NCBI RefSeq assembly: GCF_019649055.1
Contig: NW_026570306.1
Span: 186,001 to 250,000 of the forward strand
Reading direction: 5' to 3'
DNA length: 64,000 nt
DNA from: Paramacrobiotus metropolitanus
Taxonomy: Eukaryota; Tardigrada; Eutardigrada; Parachela; Macrobiotidae
This document shows, piece by piece, positions 3,097 through 25,880 of this stretch (positions are counted from its first letter, which is position 1; each line of letters begins with the position of its first letter). The notes beneath the pieces were generated by a model. It saw nothing but the letters and a program-made list of their open reading frames with translations, was not told the origin of the DNA and made no database searches. Position numbers and translations under genes: made by a program.

Positions 3097-6000
3097 TTAC
3101 TGGCACTGGCCGCCAAACAATTCTTCCAACCAGCCGTCCTTGCGTTTCAGTATGTTTTTAGGGTCATGGCGACCGCCAACTTGCCGAGCTTTCTCAATAA
3201 ATATGGCCTTTTTCTTGGCTTCTTCTAACGCTGCAATGCGCTGCATAAAATTCGGCCGCTTTTCCGATTTTTCGGTTTCTATGAGAATTTCCACATACTG
3301 CGCCGTGGCCATGACGTTTGGCCGCAATGCAATCTGGTCCAGACGATTCAGACAGTCGTTGCACGTGAAGAGATTTTCGATGACCTTCTTAGTCACTTGC
3401 TGCAGGTGCTCCTCCATCCGCTTAAGAAGGGTTACGCTGGTGACTTTCTCGCCCTTCGCCTGCGTGTACGCTTTCTTAATCTCTTCCATGGTCCGGATGA
3501 TCTTCTTTGTTCCGGTATCAAAACGAAACTGATTGTTGCAGTGCTTATCCCACGGGCATCCCTTCGGGCACACTACGCACTGGCCGTTGGTCATGGCCGA
3601 GCAGTGCACTTTGTCTTCGTCGTTGGCGTAGCGACAAGGAAAATGGCAGGTCATATTGCAGACCATACAATTGGTAACGTACTGTCCAGGATCTAAAGTC
3701 ACTTTAATAATGTACGGTTCATCCACCTCAACGCTGAAATCTTTGTTATCCTCAATTTTGCGTTCATGTTGTTTGACCACTTCCTACAATTATAGGACAG
3801 ATACTATACATAGACGGTTATACATCTAGTCTGATGACGTGCGATGATTCTGACAATATCTCAGTGTACCTGAAGTTGACGAATTTCCTCCATCTTTCCC
3901 AGACCGTAATTAATGCGTGGCTGCAGATCGCTGACCGCCGCTTCCAGTTGCGCTCGCTCCTTCAGGACTTCCCGTGTCAATGACAGGCTTTGCGGTTTTA
4001 CCTGTACCAGAGACGCCAGAAACTTCTGCACACTCTCCGTGCCCATGTCCCAGTACAGCTTGCTAGGGGTCTTCGCGTTGGGATCGTTGTCGGCGTACAG
4101 AGCACTGTTGTTAAACGGGAACCAATCGAGATACGGCACGTCGGCTGCTTTAACGCCGGCTAGCACCGGTGGAGTGGCGCCATCGGCGAACGTACACAGG
4201 AGGAAAATGTTCTTTGCAATATTCTTTCCGAAGATGGAGAGGATGCTGTCGAATATGAAGCGCTGCGTCGGTGTCAGCCGTGCCAGGGCGCTCTGCACGA
4301 CAATACACACGGCGTCGATGTGATCCAGTCCGACAAAGTTGGTATTATTAGTCGTGAAGAGACTTTTCAATTGCTGCACAATTTCCCTGTCCCGGGTCAG
4401 TCCTGCGGTGTCGCCGAATCCGGGAGTGTCGACGATGGTGAGTGAGTACGGACTGGGTGAATCAAACTGCTGCACCGCTTCATAGCAGCTGACCCATTTG
4501 GTTACGCTGTGAGCTTGCTCGGCTTCGCCTTCTTCCACGATAACCTGGAAAAGAAATTCTATTCTACGCCTGTACATGAATTTTTTTGAGTGCGGAGTTT
4601 TCTGTTTTATTAAGCAGAATTATTAGTTTGGATAATATGAGCACGGTAAAAGAATTCTTGACTTACCTTTAGCCGAGCGCTATCAGTCCATTTTACTCCA
4701 AAGAAATAATTGAACAGCCCGTTTATCAGGGTGGTTTTACCGGCGCCCGTCGACCCCACCACCAGTATGACCTTCGAACCGGCATGGGGCTGCGGAGCCG
4801 TTCCTACGGTGAATTTGCGCAGCATATGGGTTTTATCCTCGGCCACAAGATGCAATGCCGCTTGATAGATCTCGGGTGGGCCGGCCGTGATCCGTTGACT
4901 TTCGGCTAGGATGCGGTCCAGGTACCGAACCGTCGGTGCTGAGGGTGCCTGCTCGGTGCCGGTCTCCGTCTTCAGCACTGTCGTTTGTGGTTCTTCTGGC
5001 GACAACACACCGTTTCCCGATGGTTGCTCAGTCGCGGCTGTGGTCACGTTGGGGAGGACCTCCTCTTGTTCCACGATGAGGATACGTAGACGACCGCAAA
5101 ATCTGGAATCCGACTGGCTCGGTGATAGTTCCACAGTGCCGAGAGACGCTGATTTGCGTAGTTTGGACACTGTAATTTGCACCAGATCCATGGGCTTCGG
5201 CACGAATTCCTGTCCATTCCATTCCGTATATTTTCTTGCGTCGGGCATGAGTGACGCTAATTCGCTGTCATTGTCCGCAGCGTCCTTGTCTTTCAATTTA
5301 TTCCGCGTGGTTACAGGACTTTTAAACCATTTCTGTATATCTGCCTTCTTAGCCTCGTCACTCTCGCCTAATATCTGATTCAGCTTCTGCGCCAGTTCAT
5401 CCGGTCGGAGCGTACTGTTGGACCAGTACAGTACGTCCCACAGATCACGGACAAAGTCCTCCTTTTTCAGTGGTTGGACCTCCAAAGCGGCTTCGAGAAA
5501 TTTCACTAGCGGTGTCAGGTCAATGTTCTTCAAATCGTTCGACTCAGCCTGTCTTAGTGTACCGGACATTTTGTTAACCAGCGCCTTGGCATCGTCGGGT
5601 GTCAGGTAGATGCTGTCTTGATCTGGAAACTGCTCCAACATCGTGGCCAACATGTCGTTGTCCTTCAGTTTATCCGCCTCCACCGCGATGGACTTTGTAA
5701 CGGTGCTATGACCTTTGGGCATGTAGCGCACCATCACCGTGTCCAGGAAAGAATCCGTGTCTTCATGAATGATGCTGCACAGTTCCCGGGCGCTGGCTTC
5801 ATCGGCACACTTGAGCGTAAACTGAACGGTTTCTTGCATAGTGAAGGGCAACCATTTCGTGTCGGCTTCATACCACTGTTTGTCGGTGACTTCCAAGCGA
5901 ATTCGTTCGATAGGCAGCGGTTGAATGGTGGCATTACTGGCGTCCATTCCAGTGGCATTCGTAATGGCATCTCGGACAATAGAGGTAAACTTCGGATCCC

Positions 6001-7158
6001 ACATTAAGACGCTAAAGGTCGCCTGCCATACTCGCTGAATACGGTTCTGGGTGGGTTTGACGGTGTTTCGTTGGAGGATCAGGAGCGGAGAGTAAAAGTA
6101 CTCAGCCGGTGCACTGCCATTGTCCTTCTCAAACACGGGAACACCGATGCCGTGATACGGCACGGTCATCAGTTCTTTCATGTCAGCGTTAGGCTGCGAT
6201 CCTGTGAAAGCAAATTAGCCAAGATAATTTGGAGAGCCACAAAATGTCTTTAGATTCTGCTTGAGGGATTTGGCCCGGTGCATGGTACCAAATTCGTGTA
6301 CATGCACGAAAACTTTTACTTTCGCACACTACGAAAAACTTCTTTGTTTTGTTTTATGATATTCTGTAGCCAGATGAATTGTATCAGGTGTTTACTATAG
6401 TGTGAGAGCTATAGTAAGTTCTTGTTTGTATACATAGGCGTAAAAATCGTTTGCGCGCGCAACATTCGCTTTGGGAGTTATGGCTGTTAGAAAATTCAAA
6501 AAAGTTTAAAATTTAATGCATTCAGGTGTACCAAAAGTCTTGTTATCAACCGATTTCCTTTAAAGTTTGCACACAAATGCACGTAAGTGGAAGATTGTTT
6601 TTAAACCGAACCAGAATGGACGCCATTTTTTTCAAATTTTAAAATGAATTTCAGAAATTGTGTAATTTATTTTAAAATTTGGAAAAACAATGCTAGAACC
6701 GTGGTTCGGTGTAATAACGCTCTTTATACCTCTGTGCGTTTCCATGCAAAATTTAAATGAGATCGGTTAATAACGAGACATTTGCAACACCTGATGCATT
6801 TCAAGTTTTCTGGAATTTTCTTAATGCCATAACTCCCGAACCCAATACTGCGCGCACACACGGTTTTTACGCTTATATATACAAACCATCTATGTAGCTA
6901 CAGAATATCATTAAAAACAAAACAAAGGAGTGTTTCGGAGTGCGCGAAAGCAAAAGTTGTCGTGCATGTACACGAATTTGATACCATGTACCGAGCAAAA
7001 TTCCTTAAGCTGATGACTGTTTCGTAACCCCACGACTGTTGTCAGTTCGGCTGTTGTCATCCTAATGCATTGTACGATACTGTGCAATACGGTGTAATAT
7101 TCTTGCTTAACCGGGTCGAAATTTATTTGTGCTTACCTGAAGACTGCGTTCGTGACAT
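3097..7158 (-). CDS. Large AIG1/septin-like P-loop GTPase with Cys-rich C-terminal part (exons 7158-7137, 6201-4667, 4544-3870, 3783-3097)
   Basis: Four exons splice in phase into about 972 residues. The first exon is only 22 nt (MSRTQSS plus one base) with a GTAAGC donor; its intron (6202-7136) holds a foldback repeat. Exon 2 supplies a long N-terminal region with no family I know and, near residue 493, the P-loop GSTGAGKTT followed by LING. Exon 3 begins after ttttccag and carries the G3 motif VDTPGFGD near residue 556. The region where TKxD would be expected reads TFADG, so G4 is degenerate. Exon 4 carries a Cys/His cluster (CMVCNMTC, then C-x2-C and H-x2-C spacings, residues about 783-825) and a helical tail. 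This layout occurs in uncharacterised animal AIG1-like GTPases; a GTP-binding, possibly membrane-remodelling or immune role is inference. No transmembrane segment is visible. Confidence 0.85.
6262..7015. repeat. Foldback (long imperfect inverted repeat) in intron 1 of the GTPase gene
   Basis: The left arm (about 6262-6545) and the right arm (about 6775-7015) are imperfect reverse complements. Paired landmarks include ggtaccaaattcgtgtacatg with its partner near 6968-6990, the cataactcccgaa/gggagttatgg pair near 6833 and 6474, and tgcattcaggtg near 6519 with cacctgatgca near 6788. Between the arms a shorter paired stretch continues towards a centre near 6650. No coding capacity is seen. The structure fits a non-autonomous foldback or MITE-type DNA element; a target duplication was not identified. 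Confidence 0.7.
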
Positions 7159-11572: not shown

Positions 11573-14112
11573 ATGCCGTATCTTCATCCCACAGAATGGA
11601 TCGACAAGGGTCTCTCCATTGTGGGCCGTCGGACAGGGGTCATTGCGCTGTTGTTTGTGGGGACGGTGTTATTGAGTGTCGTCATCTTTATTAGTCCCTC
11701 CCATCCGAAGTCAGTGTACCGTTTTGATAATAATGGGAAAACTGCGACAGCCAGCGGAATCGTTTTGAATTTTACATCGGATCGGCTATATTCCATTCAG
11801 CCCAACGTGTGTTCACAAAATGGTAGGTCTTTTCCAAAGTTAAATTGCATCTGCAATTTTTTAAGTGAAATAGTAAAATTGTAGCTATACGCGCATGCCA
11901 GTTATGTTTTACCAATAATTTCCTAGGAGTGTCGAAAATCACCATGGAATAAGGTGCGGGAAGTAAAAATAACAATAAGGAAGAGAAAATAACAGTAAGG
12001 AAGACTTCAAAAATTATACGACAGTAAATTACAGTAACTTTTATGTATTAATGCTACTGTCGATTTACGGGGCATTTAAATAAACAGCAGTACTTGACTT
12101 ATTATATACAGAAATGCGTCAGAATTAGCACTGTCTAAATACGTAATACGTTTACACAATATAAAGCTATACAATAACGTTTTTGGAAGTGCGGTGAATA
12201 CGAAAGATGCGCCGTGCAAGAACATGTGCTCGTACTCGCAATTTGTATGGTCATCCCATGTTCCGTGTCACCTCCCTCTTAATGTTAACATTAAATACTG
12301 TATCAATAATTTAACTTATGCTCATTTCCCTTGTTTCTCCCACCACAAATTCTTTCCGTACTCCACGCACTGATTTATAAAAGCGGTTACGTTAATACTA
12401 AGCAATGTTAGTCTCTTAATTTTTATTTATTTTTCATTCCGCGCATTTCTTTCTGGTTAGGTGGAAAAGCATTTTAAAATATTTATTTGCGACTCCCGTT
12501 TCGGCAAAATGCAGTAAATTAAAAATATGCTCGCTTTGGAAACTTTAGCTTTAAAAATTCATATAACATACGTGATTATTAAAAATGTTGTTCGTGCACG
12601 GCATACGGCATATCGCCAACGGTACAACAAATAAAACTTGACTGGCAAATCATGTAAAGTCATGCAAAACTTGACTGATATGATAAGGGACTGCAATTGT
12701 TTGGTTGCAGGCCGGCATCCGCACCTCGTGCTCTTCATCCCCTCACGTCCGGGCAACACAGAGGACCGCGCAGCCATACGGGAAACCTGGGGTATGCACG
12801 CCCGTCTCTGCAACGTCCGCATCGTCTTCGGCTTCGGCCGCATCGACTCCACAGAGACGCAGCATGAAGTGTACGTAGAAAACAGCGTCTACGGGGATCT
12901 CCTGCAGGTGGCCGACGTCCCGGATGCGTACCGCAGCCAGACCAAGCTTGTGCTGGCGTTTCTAGAATGGGGCGCGGCCAACTGCCCGGGTGCCCGGTTT
13001 ATCGGTAAAGCCGACGAGGATACGTGGATCAATCTGCATGAAGTGATGCGGTACTTGGAGATGCCGCAGGCGGCGTACTCCATCACCGGGCATTTCATTA
13101 TCAACGGGACGGTGTTCCGGAAACCGGAAGAGAAATGGTAGGCTTTAATTCGCTAAACCGTACATCAATCGCTGGAATAGCACATCAATTTATTGTTATT
13201 ACGGGGTACATCGGTTAACTGCTGGGTTCTATTCGAAGAAAACTTTCCTCTTTGGCAATGGCTCATAACTAGAGAGTCAGAACTGCGCCGTTCCAGGCAG
13301 TATACGACGTCCGTCATGGTAATTGCTTCAAACGTAACGAAGTGATTCTGTATTCATAGAAATGTACTCATGTGAGAGGCAATAGTGTGCCGGAAAAACG
13401 AATTTTCCGAGAGAAGACCGAAAAACCAGTTTTTTTTATTGCTTACAAAGTAGACGTCGCCTTTATGATTTGATCGCTGAAATTTTAGTGGGCTGGTCTA
13501 TTGATTTGACGACCCGAGGGAAAGGAAATACTCGTAATTTCCTAAATTTATTACCAACTCTAAACGATTTATAAATAGAATTCTACCGGCCTAATTAATC
13601 GTTTTTGCCGGTTGGTTAGCTTCCGACGCAGCTGACTACGTAATTTTATAGCGCTCCGATGGCTGGTTGATTAAACGTTTTAACAGCATGACGTATTCAT
13701 ACGTTGCAGGTACTTGACCGTTGAAGAGTACCCCAACGACACGTACCCGCCCTTCCCGCTCGGCCAGTTATACGTCTTTCCCAATGATCTCCTGCCTAGT
13801 GTCCTCTCCGCATCCCAGCGTCTGTCCATGCACTGGTTGGACGATGTATTCATTGGTGGACAAATCCCTGCACTGTTGCGCATCCCGCACCTTCACATTG
13901 CGACACGCGCCCAATTAAGTGAAGCCAAGAACCTGATGAAAAACTGCACGAACTCCGGAGGAGCGAATGCCGTACGTTTCAACTGTGATTGCGTCGGGCG
14001 CGATTGGGTGATCATCCACGAGACACCGGCGGCGGCCAAGCGCGAGATCTTTTATGATCCCTGCATGAAGATTTATCGGCAATACACGTGTTCAGTGCTT
14101 TCGGAACAGTAA
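11573..14112 (+). CDS. Beta-1,3-galactosyltransferase-like protein, GT31 family (exons 11573-11822, 12711-13137, 13710-14112)
   Basis: Three exons in matching phases encode about 359 residues. The N-terminus is a short cytoplasmic tail and one hydrophobic anchor (residues about 22-42, GVIALLFVGTVLLSVVIFI), the type II topology of Golgi glycosyltransferases. Exon 2 starts after ttggttgcag and carries the GT31 signature region RAAIRETWG and the DxD-type metal/UDP-sugar site KADEDTW near residue 187. Exon 3 carries LDDVFIGG near residue 270, matching the EDVyvG motif. Conserved cysteines in the last 60 residues fit the lumenal fold. It probably transfers Gal or GlcNAc from UDP-sugar to an acceptor glycan; the acceptor cannot be told from sequence. 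The stop lies 43 bp before an inserted mobile element, which may therefore sit in the 3' UTR. Confidence 0.9.
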
Positions 14113-15610: not shown

Positions 15611-16262
15611 TTACTAGGCTGCATCAGAAATGTATGTTTAAGATTTAAAACGAAGTAAAGTTTCCTGGTTACCTTGAAACAGGGTTGAATCGAGTGCGGC
15701 ATCATGCCGGCACGATTATTTTCTGCAAGGACGAATTCAAAACAAAACTCATGTGAATCAGTTCTGTACACGGTGGATCTTAAGGTGGTGTCAGTTTTGT
15801 TTAAAATGCTATGGTTAGCGTTTTAGCGAGATCTCAAAACCATGGGAAGGCCCCGCGTATTATAGATATTTTCCTTATTATACGAGTACTAATGTGCAGC
15901 GGCGCCTGCACATGCCCGGAAGCTGGGTATTAAATCAGAGCGACCAGTTTCCTGCGCAATCAAAGGCCCTCTTTATTGAGCAAAGTAAAATGATTAACAT
16001 ACAAGTTTTGAAGTTATTGAGCAAAAGGAAATAACCAACACAGAAGGGCAGCCGGCAGAAGGATCTTCAACGTAGCAATGCACAGATGGCAGCTAAACCG
16101 AGTCGAAACTAAGCATCGTTCGAGAAAAGGTGACATCGCTAGCGGCTCACAAGGAAACAATAGAGAACCAGGACGGGCAGGTCTTTCAGCAACAGCTAAT
16201 AACAATCAACACTCTATGCTGATTTATACTTAATGACTTGTAGCGGGAAACAGTGAACACGG
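15611..16262. other. Intergenic between the mobile element and the fusion gene 3' end
   Basis: No supported gene or repeat was seen. Short frames here are probably chance. Confidence 0.4.
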
Positions 16263-19200
16263 TCACAGTTTTATTGCACTGTAGAAAGAGAACTGTTTAT
16301 TTTCGTAGTCAGGTGCCGGGATAGCGAATTCCGACCATTTATCACTTTCCGGATCGTATATTTCCCCTGAACAGGCTGCATTTTGATTTGTCAGTAGACT
16401 CAGTACCTCCGCATCTGACAGGGTTTCTTCCGCAGAATGTCGTCCACCTAGCACATATATGCAATGATTTAGGACAAATGCAGAATGTCCAAACCTTGGT
16501 CGACACAGATCCGAAATTTCCTCCCATTTCCCGGAAAGCAAGTTGAGGCGTACACAGGACGACAGAGGCAGCTTCGAAGACGAAGAGAATCCACCCAGTA
16601 CGTAAATATTATCGTGCAACACGGAGACCGCATAGCTACGCCGGCGAATTGTTTCAGGTAGCTCTGGGAAAGCCGTTTCCCAGCCGTTGGTCAGAGTGTT
16701 AAAGCAGATTAGCACTAATCCGGTAAACCCTGTATGATCGAATCGCCGACTGCCTGTGTACACTATTTTGTGACCCAATCGTGCACCACAATCTATTCGC
16801 CAGATCCTGCAACGAAAACATTTCAGAAATTAAATTCTACAATACTACAGCTCAGGATCGTTTAAAGACTTTGTCACATATCTTCGCATAAAGCACGAAT
16901 AAACACAACCTACTCTTTTGCATGCGGTATGAGTGCCATCTCAGCGATAGTCTGAGTCTTGAAATCAACAGCTTTTAGCAATAGACGCCCATCGGCCTGG
17001 CAGGAACTATCCCAGAAAAAAATTTTGTCTTTCACAGCCACAGGAACAGACATGTACCCCAGCGAGTCTTGAAGGCACACCGAACGCCAGGAATGTCTAT
17101 TTGTATCCCATACAATTATTTCAAGTTTTCCACTTTTTGAATTTTGTAATTGACAGGCTATTTTACTGTCATATATCGATATAAACGAACAGAAAGACTC
17201 TTTCCGCAGTTCCTCTGGCAATGGAAATTGTTGGAGGATTTTTTGAGAATGATTAAACATAAACGGGTAGACCAAGCGCACTGAGTATGGCTTGCACGAC
17301 AATATACTCGTATCTCCTGTGACTGGAATATGGCTCTCCAAGGATTCGACTTCAAAATACAATATCAGAAGCTTCTCCGCCGTTAGCAAATCAACTAGTT
17401 CTTCGGCAGAAGCCCTATTTCCACTGACATGACACAGGCTTTTTTGAACACACTGTATTAGCTTTTCCGGAAACGATTTTATAATTAACGGAGCGTAGCC
17501 ATCAAGTATCAGGGTACAGTACTGCCAATTAGAGAGTTTATCGCCGGATTCAACTAGTTCATCCGCACTGGAACGCTGTAACCATTTCTTGTATTCGCGA
17601 GTAACAGAGCTGCCTAAATCCAGCATGATACAGCCTAAACTCCAGACATCGGTTTTTCGGCCAGGAGACACGGTCGGCCATCCCAAGTAATTCTTGAGCA
17701 TCTCAGGTGACATATACCGTATTGTGCCACGGGTGTGTGTCATATCGCCGGAACAGGTCACACTGCGTTGCATAGGGACGAGGTCATCGAAATCGCTAAT
17801 CAAAAGCTTTTTTCGTCCTGATTTTGAACGCTTCACGAGCACATTTTCTGTTTTCAAATCTCCATGAATAATCCCTTTTTTATGCAAAAAATCCAGTCCG
17901 AGGGAAATTTCGAGTGCGAACCGGATTGCTGAGCTTGGGTCAAGCGAAGAATGGTTTGACTTTATTGTTTCCAATAAAGCGGCCATGTCTCCTTCTGTTG
18001 ACAAGTAAGACAGGAGTATTTGATATGGTTTCGTCTTTATGATGGATGTTTGTGGTACTTATCGTACTTGTATTCTGGGAAAATGCACGCTGGCGGTTGG
18101 CGTGTATTCGCTGACCGGAGCGTAGCATTTTGTCGTGCAATCTGCTTTTCATATAAAACAACGAAATAATTTACGAGAGTGTTATTACATAGCATTCTAA
18201 CATACCATGGTTAGAAACTTATTATGGCTTCATAGTTTCTTATTCAAAAGCAACAATAACATAATCGGAGGCTTTTGGTGCCACATCACAATGCCGTCTG
18301 AATTTTCAGGCAACCCGGCAATATGAATGTTGCGGAAGCCTAGCAAGTTGACTGCTAGTTTGTTGCGAAAATGCGCTCATGACGCCATGAGGGGTGTTCT
18401 TCCTACTATGGCTATAGCGGAGATGTTGAAATTTAGACATCTCTTCAGATTCATAACAAACCAGTAATAAGCGCTGGCTTCCACTAAAGACGACCAGACT
18501 TGGGTGGCGTCAGCCGGCGTTTTGCATATAGTCGCCTCCCTTTGTAACAAACAAGCAGCAATACTCACTGGCTATTCACTTTAGATGACCTTTAAACGCC
18601 ACCCTTTAACTGATGCAATAAACCAACGTCCTTTTTTGTGTTTTAGCTGAATTTGAAGGCCTCTGTCAGTCGCTACGCTCCGGTCACGTATTAGTGCAAA
18701 GCCGAATATGTTATTATGATGAAAGCGTTATTTGCATCACTTTCTGAAGTACAACCGCTTTTATGAATGCATAGTGCACAGTAATGTAATATAATGTGCT
18801 GTATTTTTACAAGTTTAAGGAACATGGTGGGGGCGTGGCCGGACCGTCGGTTTCTTTTGATCGCAAAGGGGCCGACAACCCGGCCCCCGGAGCGTTCCTT
18901 AAACTTGTGAAAATACAGTACCATGTGACTTTCCCTATTACTTACCGGGATAATAATCCATCAATAGCTCCACGAACGATCCTCCATCCGAATTGCGCAC
19001 GGTGATCTTGTGATAGGCCGCCAAATTCTTGTGCTTTAGGTGAACCAGAATACTGAATTGCCGTTGAAGTTTTTTATAGCGTTCGGGGTTCACCACCAGT
19101 TCCGCTTCCTTGTGCAAATGAGTGACTTTGACGGCCAGTAAATTCTGCTTAGTGCTTCGGTTTCGTAAGAATTCTTTTGTTGAGCTTGCGGTGGTTATTT

Positions 19201-22200
19201 TGGCTTTATAAACAATGCCAAAAGCGCCTCGGCCAATATAATCGCTTTGGCGGTAACTGTACTGCCAACTGCAACCAAATGTTTCAGTGATATTGCTACC
19301 GGGTTGTATTAAACCGCGAATTTTTGTTAGAACACTTCCTTTGAAAGCCGAAAACGATTTGCTGCTCCGTAGGTTTGAGGCAGGTGACTGCCGCGAAAAT
19401 GACTGCAGACTTTGCAAATCCCGGTGTGATGGTTTCTGGACAACCGCACTGTTTTCCACCGTATCTAGTTTATCTTCCGTCTCGGTAGACGGCTTTTCAG
19501 GCAAATATTTTGATGATTCGGCTTTCACCGAAACGTCCTTCGTTTTGAATACCTTTGCTACGGCTTCGGTTATCCGTTTTACCCATTCCGTTTGTTCGGA
19601 CGCTGTGGCCGCAAGCATTTCATACATTTTAGCATCTGCTTGAGTCACATTGATCAATAAAAAGAAGGCTAAGCTATCCAAAGCGTTGCTTTTCACGTGA
19701 ATACTGTCAAGCGACAAAACAGGATTCCAGGTTTCAGCCGGTAAACTGCGTCGAAAGCTTTTATTGTATCCAGATCTCGATGGAGAATGGAATTTCAGGA
19801 CCAGTTTTCCATCGACTTTGGTAACAAGCCAAATCATGCTGTCCAAAAGCAGCACATGCAAGTTGACAATCTTGCTCGGCAAGCGCCAGGTTAGATCTCC
19901 ACTAAACAGCAGGCAACGGTCCTGAAGGTTTGATAGCTACAAAAGTGACTCAGCATCATGATTGATGGACAAAAAATCAATGCAAAATACTAATTCTATT
20001 TTGGAGTACCTGAGACAAATTTAGTTTCTTGCAACGTTCTATGAATGGCGCTGTATCCATTTTTGCCAATACATGCTTTAATCGACTCTGGTTCCAAGTT
20101 TCATCCATACTGTTAAGGGGCTGCTGCACACTGGAAAGAATTGTCTCACACTCCGTCAACGCACAAGAAAATCTTTCCTTTTCAAGGGTATCATGCACTG
20201 CAAATGCCAAAAACGTGCTTTCGTCAAAACATTATTAGTTGTTTCATTTGACATCTTGGTTTCTAGGCTCTGTTGCTTGCGGCCTGACGTGTACGGGTGT
20301 ACCTGCACCGTACCCATCGTACTACTCTATTACTTCTATTGCCCCTTCTCACGATTTTATATTAGTACGGCTACTCGAGTCATGACCCCGTGTCCGAGCC
20401 GTGCCTTCTGAGAAATCCCCAGCAAGGAGCTTTGACCGCGACTGTGCACTTCGACGTGACCGCGTGTCCACTGACGTAGCTTTAGCCTTTACATATTGTT
20501 CTCTGTTGTTCATATTGATGATTTTAACGTCAGTGGAGCGGTAAGCACTCTGCTCTCGTCGGACTCTGTAGCTGGCAGTATCCCGATTGTGATAGAATCA
20601 ATGAAGCTTAAACACCCTGCTGCCCCGTTACCCATACCGCCGCCCGACCCCCCAGCCTCTAGTTTTGCCCCTCTTACCCCCGCTGAGGTTTTATCTGTCA
20701 TAGAGGCGATGCCACGTGGCAGCGCAGGAGGCCTGGATTATCTGCGTCCCCAACATTTGCTGGATCTGATTGGCGCAAGAATGGATGACGCCGCATCTAG
20801 TTTGTGTGGTGCCCTGACGGACTTGCTCAACCTTATCCTAGCGGGCAAAGCTCCTCCTGAGGTGGTTCCACTCTTGTTTGGCGATCGACTCGCTGCCTTA
20901 CGTAAAAGAGGATGTGGGCTTTCGCCCAATCGCCGCAGGAAATACATACCGCCGCATTGCTGCCAAGGCGGTGGATATCCGAATAAGGCCTGTCACAGCG
21001 AAGATCCTATAGCCACATCAACTAGGCTCCGGAGTAAAGAGAGGAGTCGAAGGAATTATCCACGCAGCTAGAGATTTTCTGCTCCAATACAGCAGCGGCG
21101 TTAAAGCTCTTCTAAAAATAGATTTCACTAACGCCTTCAACTGCGTGTCACGCGAGGAAGTACTGCGGATAACGGCTGAAGTCATACCGAAATATTACGC
21201 CTTTGTGAAAATGTTCTACGGTTCATATTCGTCGCTGTTCTTAGATGAAACAATAATTGCCTCCCAGTCTGGCGTGCAGCAAGGGGATCCTCTTGGTCCG
21301 GTCTTCTTTTGTTTGGTATGCAGTTCGTCATCGACAAACTAAGCGCTTACCTGAACGCGTGGTACATGGATGAAGGGACATTAGGAAGAACATCATCGGA
21401 AGTGATCCGCAACTTCCTACTGGTGATAGGAAGTTCCTACTGCTGATAGTGGAAGCTAAGAAGGTCGGCCTGGAAGCCAACATCGCGAAGTGCAAACTGT
21501 TTTTGTGTGGGGTACCGAAGCACATTGTTCATCGGCCGCTAACGAGTTCACCAGTTTATTCCCTGAATAGCTATAGTAGCAGCGGATAAACTAAATCTGC
21601 TCGGATTCCCTCTTCTATCAGCCGCCGTAATCCCGATGGTCAACGAAAAAATTAACCAGTTGGGAATTATGTGCGGCCGCTTGCAGTTTATCCCTAAACA
21701 TCAAGCGCTGTTCCTGTTGAAGAATTGCCTAGGGGTGCCAACAATTGTGCATATCTTGCGCACTTCCCTCGCATGGATATTTCAACAAGAGCTGTACAGA
21801 CTGGACCAGGTATTTCGCGAGACAATTGAGACCATCACCAATGAAAGGATGGACCGCCCAGACGGCCCATTGTAACATCACAAGTTGTAATTCCAACAAG
21901 ATTAGAGACTTGGCCTCGATGTGATTAACTTCACGATTTTGCTCTGTTATTCTCGTATCGCTGTGAGGGCTTCGCTACCAGACCTCTTGGTCACTCACCT
22001 ACGTTTGTGGTTCTCCTTCATGTTACTGGCGTGCACTATTCAAGTCAGGTAGTCTTGCAATAAGATAGGTGACCTTTAGCTCTCATTTGCATCCCTTCAC
22101 CTTTGGTCTCTTCATGCCCAGTATCGCCTGGTTGATGGATATTGCTTTCACCGCTTCTGCTAACATGTAGCGTGAGGTCAGGTAAGTACACTCGTATATT

Positions 22201-25200
22201 TGTGTATATTCTCGTGTTTGCAGCAGGGATTCCTGAGTTCCAGCAGTTCCTGTCTTGTACCTGATCTTCTTCATAGTAAAGCCGTCCCATTTTCCCAACA
22301 GTCTGAGATAAGAGTCGGTTTTACCGATTGTGTCGTGGTCGTTATGTGTTACAGTAAACTCTGCGAGACTGAACAACCGCGAATATTGAACGCTCGGCTA
22401 GGAACCGCAGCGTCTTTTAGACTGCGAATGCTACTGCGAATATTGAACAGTTGCTTAAACAACGCTTTTGAAGGAACCGCGGGTGTTCAAATTACACAGG
22501 TTTTACTGTAGTGCTGAACGGATAAGCAACGTCTTTCTTTCAACTATCACGACAGGCTCAAGCAAAACAAATTAAATGCTTTCTGTTAGTGCCAATTGCT
22601 GATGTAGTTAAACAGTTTAATATGCAGCCAATATGCAAGTCCTTGCACCCATAGATACTCTAGATGATGTCACTCCAGATTTAGTGGCATGGACAAGTAA
22701 TGCACGCCTCCTTTCTGACACCTTTTGGGTCGCGCAGTGCAGTGCTCCCTGCATAACCTTTCATTCGGCATAAAACCTTTTACACTACAATCTATTCGGT
22801 GCGCTAGCTCTCAATATCACAGGGTACCGACCATGCGGTATCATAGTATAATTCCGAAATCGGACCGATTTTACCGTAAACTGCTATTTTGCGCAGTTGT
22901 TTGGGACGGTTCTGGTGCTTCAGTACATACCTTCTAGAGCGTGTATCATTATACTCCCTGTACATCAGGGTATCCCACCGCCTCGAACCGCAGCGGCAAT
23001 TTTGAGTTACGTACTTACGCTTGTTAAAAAGCTGGTCGGAGACGACCTTTTGCTCAAAATCATTGTTTAATAAAATTTTGTATTCTCGCGAATTAAAAGA
23101 CGATTTATAATTTCAAATCCGCTTCGCGAAACGACGCCATTGATATCCAAAGAGCCACAAAGTCGCTGCCCAGATATCTCGCCTAAATATCGTGTCTTCA
23201 TTTTACGTCCTTGCAACTTCATGTTGCATTTACATTAAATTTTACTTCCTGTTGTACTTGTTTCTAAGTGAGTCGTTCTGCTGGCCAGTCACTGTTGCAA
23301 CATAGAGTTCTCTTATAGTGGACCTGTGTTATACCTGTGCAGATCGACGATGACCTTTGTGTGTTACCTACCTGTACTTATAACACTAGGTAACGCCCCC
23401 GTACGATTGTGACCTTTATTCAATAAACAAAATACTATGCCCATTATAACAATGCTATGCTAGGTGGCAGTTGTAGACTGATAGTCGACTGGCAGACTGC
23501 TGTAAGACTACTGTCTGGTACGGTGGGGAGGGTGGCTTATATTATTATAGTTCTGGTATGGATCGGCTCGGCTGGCATGGGTGGGGCTGGTGCGGCGACA
23601 AACCAATGACGGGATGCCTAACGGTGTGTAATAGGCCGTCTTGCCGATGTAATATGTGATGCCATATGACCGGGCTGGAATACGCGTGCGTAACTGCTTG
23701 TCAGCTTCCGGAGGCTAACGGTGGTGTGACTGATGCTGACTGATTTATCATGTTGTATTATTAAAGTTACCCATTTTTGCGCGGGAGACTAATGGACTTC
23801 TAATAAATATCGCATAAAAGTGCAAAGTGCAAGCTATAAAGTATATGTAGGACAGCCGCTATCTATCCAAATTTAACGGGGAAACGCGATATGTGTTATG
23901 GGTATAATCCCCGAGAATCGAAGAAGTGTTTATGTTATGAATTTGTTTTAGTACTCAGTGTGTACTTACTTATTAAAAGTTACAGTAAATCCACTGAAAA
24001 TATATCATTACGCGTACTTATATCTGTACTTACTTCACAATGCCCCTAGCAAGTTATAAACGTTAATTGCTCCGTGACTTACCATTACAATATTTCATCA
24101 GTTTCTTTATAAAAATTGAATACTTGGCCAATATCTTGACTTCGACTGAAGTGATGTCTTCTAATGTCAGGTTCCAACATAGCAAACGCTCAGCGCAAAT
24201 TTGCAATTGACGTGTTAACACGGTGGACGTGTTGCGATCGTCCGTTAAAGATGCGAATCCTTTACGCTGGTGCTGACAAAATGCAGAAACTGCTCGTTGA
24301 AACTCTTTACCGTTTTGGCCATTGAATCGGGAAGCCAGTGCATCTCCAGCCGTTAACGAAGCAATATCCGTTGCGCTTTTTTGCAGATTCCGACTAAATT
24401 CAGCATGCAGAAAAATAATTTCCTCAATATTTGGAAATATTTGGTTCAGAATATCCAGAGGAACTAGTTGGCAGCTTAGTATTGGCTGGTAAAAATTTTC
24501 TCTTAACGCAGTTAAATGCTCAACGTGAGACTTTTCCGCTTGAATTAATTTGGCCAAATATGTTTCGTGTTTACGTGCCCGGTAGTCAACTTTCTTTAAC
24601 ACCTGTGGCTTCAAATTCACTGATGAGTATTTCGCTGTACACTGCGACGTCTTCGGAAAACTAGATGGTGCAAGTGTTACACCATCTATCTCAAAGTTTA
24701 AATCGCTCTCGTCGAAGCATAGAAATCCACCTAATTCTGCTGCTCCTACTGCGACAACTTGGCATGGATCAATCGTCATAAGCAATTTTGCACAAGGAAA
24801 GTGATGCTCTAACAACTCCTTCACCTTAGGAATTCGACTGCCGCCGCCAACAACAATTATGTTCGAAATATCCGTGCTCTGTAAGCCCGACGTCGTCAGA
24901 GCCCTCTGCACTGGATGTATGATGCGGCCAAACAAAGAAGAACACAAAGTTTCTAGTTCCTGACGAGTAAAATTAGATATTAAATCGTGGTCTTCGGCGA
25001 TTTCTTTCAGCATGAGTAATTTCTTACTAGTGAAACTCAGGTTTTTTTTAATGGATTCACACTCGTTTCTGAGTCGAAACAGCGCTTTCGCATTGGTGCT
25101 AACGTCAGTATAGTATGAATCTTTAATAACCTGCACAAGGTGTTGAACCAAGCAAAGGTCAATGTCGTCACCGCCAAGATGCTGGTTACAAGCTGTCGCG

Positions 25201-25880
25201 CGGATGCGAAATTCTCTGGACTCGTCAACTTCGACAACTGACGCGTACAATGTTTGTGCTCCGAAATCGAAAACCAGGACATTTCGTGTGTCCCGAATAT
25301 CTCTCCAGTAGCCCAGCGCAGCGGCAAGCGGTTCGTTTAAGATTTGGATGACTGTCAGTCCTGCTAACTCTGCGGCTTTTTTCATCGCTTGGCGCTGTGC
25401 GATGCTAAAATTTGCTGGAACAGTTACTACAACGCCAAAAATCTTTGCCGAGAATGTCTTTTCCGCAATATGCTTCAGGTACGACAACATAATTCCGATG
25501 ATCTCTTCTGGAGAATAATAAACTGGTGCGCCGTTCTCTTCGATTTGAACGACAGGAGAGCCGTTTTTGTTGAGAATCGTGTAATACACGGAATTTTTCT
25601 GATCTGCCACATCTGCATGATGGTAAGATTTTCCAAGGATACGTTTGATATTGTATACACAATTTTTCGGTTCGATTGATTGGTGTGCTTTTGCCGCACT
25701 GCCATAAAGCAATTTTCCCACCGTATTCGTTTGATCAAATGCGATGCAGTTAGGTATTACCTGTAAGCCGCTGCTGGGTTCCGAGACTGCGGTGATGCGG
25801 CCACTGCGGCGATCATACACCGCTAAAGTACAGCTAGATGCCCCAAGATGAATGCCAGCCACAAGGTCTCTCGATCCCAT
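16263..25880 (-). CDS. Hsp70-RhoGEF(DH-PH)-protein kinase-Kelch fusion protein (exons 25880-24083, 20197-20010, 19936-18946, 17994-16914, 16806-16263)
   Basis: Five exons join in one frame (4602 nt, about 1533 residues). Residues 5-385 are an Hsp70-type ATPase domain (VVVTVPANF, LNEPLAAALGY, IIVVGGGSRIPKV). From about 438 a DH domain begins (YLAKLIQAEKSHVEHL, then IFPNIEEII and LHAEF), filling the place of the Hsp70 substrate-binding domain. Exon 1 ends AATG|GTAAGT in phase 1 within the last DH helices, and exon 2 (tttgcag|TG) completes them. Exon 3 opens with a PH domain (about 665-790) and, near 895, the kinase glycine loop IGRGAFGIVYKAK and VAIK-like lysine (LLAVKV). Exon 4 gives HGDLKTENVL (about 1036), a DFD in place of DFG, MSPEML, then the first Kelch-like blades; exon 5 completes the Kelch repeats (YVLGG twice). 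DH-PH modules activate Rho GTPases. The fused function is unknown. Intron 1 (20198-24082) carries LINE debris. Confidence 0.85.
18111..18686. repeat. Short inverted pair bounding 576 bp in intron 3 of the fusion gene
   Basis: tgaccggagcgtagc at 18111-18125 is the exact reverse complement of gctacgctccggtca at 18672-18686. Close relatives lie at 8348-8362 (-) and 10978-10991 (+). It may mark the ends of a small mobile element; no target duplication was found. Confidence 0.5.
18797..18921. repeat. GC-rich foldback hairpin in intron 3 of the fusion gene
   Basis: Outer arms ctgtatttttacaagttta and its partner (taaacttgtgaaaatacag) pair around a GC-rich stem built from ggtgggggcgtggccgg and cccggcccccgg. 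The loop is about 20 nt near 18853-18872. The hairpin is about 125 nt long and would be a strong structure in the pre-mRNA. It is probably a miniature foldback element. Confidence 0.75.
20260..21880 (+). pseudogene. Decayed LINE-type (non-LTR) reverse transcriptase in intron 1 of the fusion gene
   Basis: Segments in different frames line up as one reverse transcriptase. They are MPRGSAGGLDYLRPQHLLDL near 20708, then a frameshift after about 20910, then the finger/palm segment ALLKIDFTNAFNCV (21106-21147), SGVQQGDPLGPVFF (21272-21313), another frameshift, and the catalytic box reading YMDEG at 21363-21377 where YMDDG is expected. A thumb-like segment follows at 21636-21860. At least two frameshifts, one in-frame stop and the altered catalytic box show that it is dead. 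It runs antisense to the host gene. The first 240 bp (20260-20500) have a diverged inverted relative at about 39500-39720. Confidence 0.8.
21881..24082. other. Remainder of fusion-gene intron 1
   Basis: No supported gene. A minus frame at 22083-22376 is open for 97 codons and looks mildly protein-like, but no splice pair in the right phase was needed or found: exon 1 and exon 2 of the fusion gene already join within the DH domain. The rest is AT-rich with no obvious repeat. Confidence 0.45.

Follow-up and report, generated by a model that had tools for sequence, protein, structure and literature searches.

In the 64,000-nucleotide (nt) stretch of the Paramacrobiotus metropolitanus genome analyzed here (assembly GCF_019649055.1, contig NW_026570306.1, positions 186,001 to 250,000; hereafter the window), a gene on the minus strand, running from position 25,880 down to 16,263, brings together modules that Pfam places in the order HSP70, RhoGEF, PH_16, Pkinase, and Kelch. 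This eutardigrade gene very probably consists of five exons and codes for one protein of 1,533 residues. A previous description made from the letters alone (hereafter the sequence-only reading) had proposed that Hsp70 ATPase, DH, PH, kinase, and Kelch modules sit together in one protein, and all five were found there by Pfam. We lean towards the view that the protein is a domain fusion built around a DH-PH core of the ARHGEF1/11/12 type, and that it would serve as a scaffold in which no more than one enzyme is live. Gene structure, domains, and residues were observed, and every functional step is what we infer from them.

Rebuilt from the window, the spliced model amounted to 1798 + 188 + 991 + 1081 + 544 = 4602 nt on the minus strand and ended in a single terminal stop, with cumulative phases 1, 0, 1, and 2. 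The five exons in one frame announced by the sequence-only reading, with the same phases and total length, were therefore recovered. GT and AG bounded all four introns; the donors read GTAAGT, GTACTC, GTAAGT, and GTAGGT, and the acceptors of introns 1–4 ended in GCAG, GTAG, ACAG, and GCAG. A scripted comparison showed that the spliced product is identical, over its 1,533 residues, to the public NCBI entry "uncharacterized protein LOC129596103" of P. metropolitanus, which a protein search also returned at 100% over the searched region, residues 395–1533. LOC names come from the NCBI eukaryotic annotation pipeline, where RNA-seq can be used. The features of the gene are the following, reference residues of HSPA1A or ARHGEF1 being given beside those of the tardigrade protein.

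24083..25880, minus strand: exon 1, one open frame with the start ATG, the Hsp70 nucleotide-binding domain (NBD, residues 7–390), a 53-residue linker, and the first DH part; Pfam HSP70 and RhoGEF matches fall in this same exon.
24711..25862, minus strand: Hsp70 NBD, residues 7–390, with H11 (D10), A14 (T13), and Y212 (D206), and without a substrate-binding domain behind it (Pfam, alignment).
24552..24710, minus strand: linker between Hsp70 NBD and DH, residues 391–443, intronless.
24083..24551, minus strand: first part of DH (RhoGEF), residues 444–599, with K444 for ARHGEF1 E423 (Pfam, alignment).
20198..24082, minus strand: intron 1, 3885 nt, inside DH, with a reverse-transcriptase remnant on the plus strand and AATAAA at 23420 and 21560.
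20010..20197, minus strand: exon 2, the end of DH (to residue 623) and the DH-PH connection, with Q624 for ARHGEF1 N603.
18946..19936, minus strand: exon 3, PH_16 (residues 664–788), a 101-residue linker, and the kinase N-lobe (from residue 890).
16914..17994, minus strand: exon 4, the kinase C-lobe with HGD at 17858–17866 and DFD at 17786–17794, then a stretch taken by eye for degenerate propeller blades.
16263..16806, minus strand: exon 5, Kelch repeats (Kelch_1, best 1407–1453; Kelch_2, 1456–1512) and the stop codon.
15972..15977, minus strand: AATAAA, a candidate poly(A) signal 286 nt past the end of the stop codon.

The claim that this is one gene rather than two was supported by the model itself, by shared exons, by collinear ARHGEF1 matches, and by the identical public entry. 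Hsp70 and most of DH lie in one uninterrupted exon, 53 residues (159 nt) apart; PH shares an exon with the kinase N-lobe, and the kinase C-lobe shares another with the start of the last region. The ARHGEF1 alignment crosses introns 1 and 2, and the ASK1 alignment crosses intron 3. Splicing raised the Pfam RhoGEF score from 62.2 to 66.7 bits and extended the match from profile positions 4–155 to 4–179 of 180, which agrees with the earlier statement that the join between exons 1 and 2 falls inside DH and restores it. The Pkinase profile rose from 11.8 bits with exon 3 alone to 108.6 bits once spliced. Human ARHGEF1, searched against the window by tblastn (E up to 1), gave two matches, one to exon 1 and the other to exon 3, which are collinear and share a strand. 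Lastly, when 491 AG acceptors were compared for intron 1 against the C-terminus of the ARHGEF1 DH, the modelled one came out best, with a modest margin (45 versus 37).

A competing explanation was that the fusion is an annotation artefact in which two or more adjacent genes were merged, with exon 1 (Hsp70-DH) and exons 2–5 belonging to different genes, or with exon 5 (Kelch) standing apart from the other exons. Several observations speak in its favor and hence weigh on the single-gene model. According to PMC12964723, the majority of fusions that are specific to helminths in helminth annotations are likely artefacts, the species-specific ones faring worse. Intron 1 is long, with its reverse-transcriptase remnant, and the two AATAAA that it holds mean that a short Hsp70-DH transcript could exist. 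Intron 4, located after residue 1352, precedes the Kelch profile matches and is unbridged by homology, the exon 4/5 join having phase and the identical public model as its sole supports. Against an artefact, the surprising junction, that between Hsp70 and DH, is inside one exon, and its 159-nt interval compares with mean interdomain lengths of 180 bp for conserved two-domain proteins and 691 bp for species-specific ones, as reported in PMC12964723. The collinearity of human ARHGEF1 on exons 1 and 3, the restoration of both DH and kinase profiles by splicing, the first rank of the intron 1 acceptor (modest as its margin is), and the identity of the public model point the same way. Because Hsp70 and DH share an exon, PH and the kinase N-lobe share another, and introns 1–3 are bridged, we consider a false fusion to be very improbable.

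Two introns and the 3' region carried elements of their own. In intron 1, the plus strand of 20475–21339 holds a reverse-transcriptase remnant that we read as a decayed retrotransposon: 21013–21339 matched RVT_1 at 3.2e-6 (27.4 bits for a cut-off of 29.6), and 20475–21068 had no Pfam match. In intron 3, an inverted repeat (18796–18834 and 18883–18921) has 39-nt arms that are 82% complementary and 48 nt apart; it may represent a small foldback element. At 15973–16046, in what is probably the 3' region of the gene, lie two direct 33-nt copies with a spacing of 41 nt, 76% alike, each with TTATTGAGCAAA. Between 15300 and 26000, AATAAA was counted eight times (two in intron 1, four in exons 3–5, and two downstream); since it is present in exons 3, 4, and 5 as well as in intron 1, the candidate poly(A) hexamer carries little weight. 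The GC content at third codon positions (GC3) ranged from 0.367 to 0.488 across seven segments, and this codon composition did not mark any single domain as being of foreign origin. Rfam returned no match at gathering scores in the window.

We then looked for relatives with three queries, namely residues 395–1533, DH-PH against long proteins, and DH-PH against shorter proteins. Candidates were picked by shared five-residue words and 8000 were scored per query, targets being of ~843–2683 residues for the first two queries and of ~276–877 residues for the third; with this seeding and this number of candidates, a diverged orthologue or a split model could be missed. The searches gave 21, 188 (the best 120 listed), and 12 matches, respectively. 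Among the domains listed, neither PF00012 nor PF00621 was present in any of the 20 other matches to residues 395–1533. All 119 other matches of the long DH-PH query, among the best 120 of 188, combined PF17838, PF00621, and PF09128 without PF00012, and so did 12 of the 12 matches to shorter proteins. Among the matches listed, there was no second protein of this architecture and, among those named, no other tardigrade protein; the Hsp70 part was not a query, so Hsp70 with other partners was not sought. The sequence-only reading had stated that no described protein is known to have all five modules, and within the matches listed nothing contradicted it. A literature search found no paper on LOC129596103, nor on RhoGEF with "HSP70 domain" and Kelch, and the papers retrieved for a fusion of RhoGEF and Hsp70 looked unrelated. 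As for NCBIfam, the best 25 of 26 families included DnaK/HscA, actin-like (MreB and others), and kinase matches, all below cut-off, and none for the DH-PH or Kelch parts.

That no further record of LOC129596103 appeared among the matches listed is another argument for an artefact. The lack of a relative with this architecture among them would also suit a recent fusion that is now decaying as a pseudogene, as would the changes in catalytic residues described below. Against decay, the 1,533 codons run without internal stop or frameshift, and all five domains (5/5) reached strong profile scores. We regard a pseudogene as just as improbable as an annotation artefact.

The Pfam HSP70 match spans residues 7–390 (E 1.7e-93) and ends at position 378 of a 599-position profile that it enters at position 1, which indicates that only the NBD is present. 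By Pfam, the substrate-binding domain and lid are absent, and DH comes next in the same exon. This sets the tardigrade protein apart from Hsp70 family members such as HSPA1A and Kar2/BiP, as does its fusion to a RhoGEF. Aligned with HSPA1A, 139 of 379 residues are identical (36.7%). The residues named as catalytic for Hsp70 in PMC9438496 are Asp10, Lys71, Glu175, Asp199, Thr204, and Asp206; Asp10, Asp199, and Asp206 are described there as catalytically important, Asp10 lying on a metal ion beside the beta-phosphate. Four of the six (K71, E175, D199, and T204) were kept in the tardigrade NBD, and D10 and D206 were replaced by H11 and Y212. The adenosine-pocket residues that we checked (E268, K271, S275, G338, G339, and R342) were all kept. 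Other changes relative to HSPA1A include T13A (A14), T14 to Ser, Y15 to Ser, Y149 to Asn, R171Q, G202A, G203Q, S340 to Gly, and D366 to Cys. We take R171 of Hsc70 to be the arginine on which J-proteins dock. Because D10H and D206Y fall within the catalytic set given in PMC9438496, ATP turnover by the Hsp70 part is probably crippled. The NBD may nevertheless retain nucleotide binding, and it may bind nucleotide without turnover or with a slow one. Incidentally, 69 putative HSP70 genes are reported for Hypsibius exemplaris in PMC6652013.

The DH-PH part corresponded to Pfam RhoGEF at residues 444–623 (3.8e-18) and PH_16 at residues 664–788 (2.9e-24). Its best Protein Data Bank (PDB) matches were ARHGEF1 (1e-41), ARHGEF11 (2.1e-38), and ARHGEF12 (8.4e-33), with AKAP13, Vav, and intersectin far behind. 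Like the RGS-RhoGEFs ARHGEF1 (p115-RhoGEF), ARHGEF11, and ARHGEF12 (LARG), the protein has a tandem DH-PH, ~30% identical to ARHGEF1, with a PH of the PH_16 type; it differs from them by the Hsp70 NBD in front and by the kinase and Kelch parts behind. PF09128, presumably the RGS-like domain that stands N-terminal to DH-PH in ARHGEF1-type proteins, had no Pfam match in the tardigrade protein at E up to 1. The view that the Hsp70 part occupies the place of the RGS-like region in front of DH-PH is thus a supported one at the level of domain order.

Residues involved in the contact with RhoA gave a mixed picture. According to PMC4232260, Glu790 and Glu794 of LARG, like their AKAP-Lbc counterparts, contact RhoA Tyr34, the E790G change leaves 15–20% activity, loss of the GEF-switch residue Trp769 does likewise, and the TXS(D/E) motif of the PH contacts RhoA Glu97. 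In our alignment, T440, K444, and Q624 take the place of ARHGEF1 E419, E423, and N603, and KI replaces the first two residues (QR) in the ARHGEF1 stretch QRLTKYP. We assume that N603 has a functional role. Both glutamate positions contacting switch I were therefore replaced (T440 and K444, as numbered by counting from W398), and no Trp that could act as the GEF switch was found in residues 392–445. The PH, in turn, retains TXS(D/E) as T773-A-S-E776. With both switch-I glutamates replaced and no Trp at the GEF switch, RhoA exchange by this DH is probably weak; since TXS(D/E) is retained, Rho docking via the PH is plausible. The choice of GTPase by DH-PH may also be altered. In another tardigrade, Richtersius cf. 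coronifer, the ten genes with the highest expression include one for a "rhogef domain containing protein", as reported in PMC6652013.

The kinase part (Pfam Pkinase, residues 890–1193, 4.8e-31) had MAP3K5/ASK1 as its best PDB match (E 4.9e-17). Its likeness to MAP3K5/ASK1 and other Ser/Thr kinases is weak, without a clear subfamily, and it differs from them at HGD, DFD, and the alpha-C Gln. Active kinases are recognized by the VAIK Lys, the alpha-C Glu, HRD, an Asn, and DFG. The tardigrade kinase keeps the glycine loop (GRGAFG, 897), the Lys of AVKV (930), the catalytic Asp, the Asn (in KTEN), and the metal Asp, but has Q955 for the alpha-C Glu, HGD (1036) for HRD, and DFD (1060) for DFG. It may be active, weak, or dead. 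Behind it, Kelch_1 matched three stretches (3.3e-19, best 1407–1453) and Kelch_2 matched 1456–1512. The propeller profiles of KLHDC2/KLHL20 and LZTR1 matched the full protein below their cut-offs. To the eye, residues 1205–1405 resemble additional degenerate blades, most of this stretch being without profile support. The repeats resemble those of Kelch propellers of the KLHL and LZTR1 types; in contrast to these, they stand C-terminal to a kinase, and no BTB or BACK domain was found by Pfam at E up to 1.

How these parts might work together is best explained, in our opinion, by a scaffold rather than a switchable enzyme, because key catalytic residues of both the Hsp70 and the RhoGEF parts are altered. 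The Hsp70 NBD would occupy the N-terminal position usually taken by the RGS-like region, and behind the PH a kinase and a Kelch propeller would have been added. The NBD would probably be a fixed fold that binds a nucleotide or a partner but does not run through the ATPase cycle of Hsp70, and the DH would probably exchange poorly or be dead. With its TXS(D/E), the PH would be able to dock on Rho or the membrane, the propeller would bind clients or actin, and the kinase, if active, would be brought to Rho sites by docking.

Some of our own observations pull away from this scaffold. The four catalytic residues and the adenosine pocket kept in the NBD leave room for a slow ATPase. E439 lies one residue before T440, which is the LARG E790 position, and a register shift could rescue the contact. 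Moreover, LARG E790 and E794, residues taken from PMC4232260, were equated with ARHGEF1 E419 and E423 through a 21-residue count that starts from the Trp of the GEF switch (W398) and not through an alignment with LARG. Finally, the departures in three kinase motifs mean that the kinase may be dead too. This last point leads to the possibility that none of the three enzyme-like domains is live, in which case the protein would be a scaffold made purely of pseudoenzymes. The Gln at the alpha-C Glu, HGD, and DFD, on top of the NBD and DH changes, would fit it; the ATP-binding Lys, catalytic Asp, Asn, metal Asp, and glycine loop are all present in the kinase and argue otherwise. We regard it as unlikely, albeit the most serious of the alternatives.

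The sequence-only reading had favored a lineage-specific RhoGEF whose exchange is switched on and off by an ATP-driven Hsp70 module. All modules are indeed in one frame, the NBD retains K71, E175, D199, and T204 together with the adenosine-pocket residues that we checked, and the PH retains TXS(D/E). Yet the NBD bears D10H, T13A, and D206Y, the presumed J-protein docking Arg has become Gln, and the DH has neither of the switch-I glutamates nor the GEF-switch Trp. The idea that an ATP-switched chaperone replaces the regulatory region of a RhoGEF can therefore be kept for its position, before DH-PH and in a protein without PF09128, but found no support for its ATP switch. Such a chaperone driving the RhoGEF is disfavored by the lack of a substrate-binding domain, by D10H, D206Y, and T13A, and by Thr and Lys in place of the DH glutamates. 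We find an ATP-switched RhoGEF improbable, and less likely than the Rho-docked scaffold. Bolder, and somewhat more doubtful still, is the thought that a degenerate Hsp70 fold replaced the G-alpha-sensing RGS domain in an ARHGEF1-like protein and, as a sensor of ADP/ATP or of stress clients, would steer a Rho-docked kinase in drying or heat. All these alternatives overlap with one another and with the scaffold explanation, and their odds need not sum to one.

An Hsp70 NBD joined to a RhoGEF would link proteostasis and the cytoskeleton in an unusual manner, in a drying-tolerant phylum. On the bolder reading, if true, a sensor of nucleotide or stress derived from a chaperone would be wired directly into tardigrade Rho signaling. 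The altered catalytic residues would offer a clear and testable instance of enzyme domains reused as a scaffold. Intron positions within domains, for their part, help to separate a species-specific fusion from an annotation artefact.

Elsewhere in the window, two open reading frames at 12635–14109 on the plus strand correspond to consecutive parts of Galactosyl_T (profile positions 2–132 and 132–193), and we attribute them to a neighboring galactosyltransferase gene. On the minus strand, at 3100–6214, adjacent open reading frames gave sub-threshold P-loop and AIG1 matches, the third one (3100–3783) being without a match; together, they may form a single GTPase-like gene whose N-terminal region has no match.

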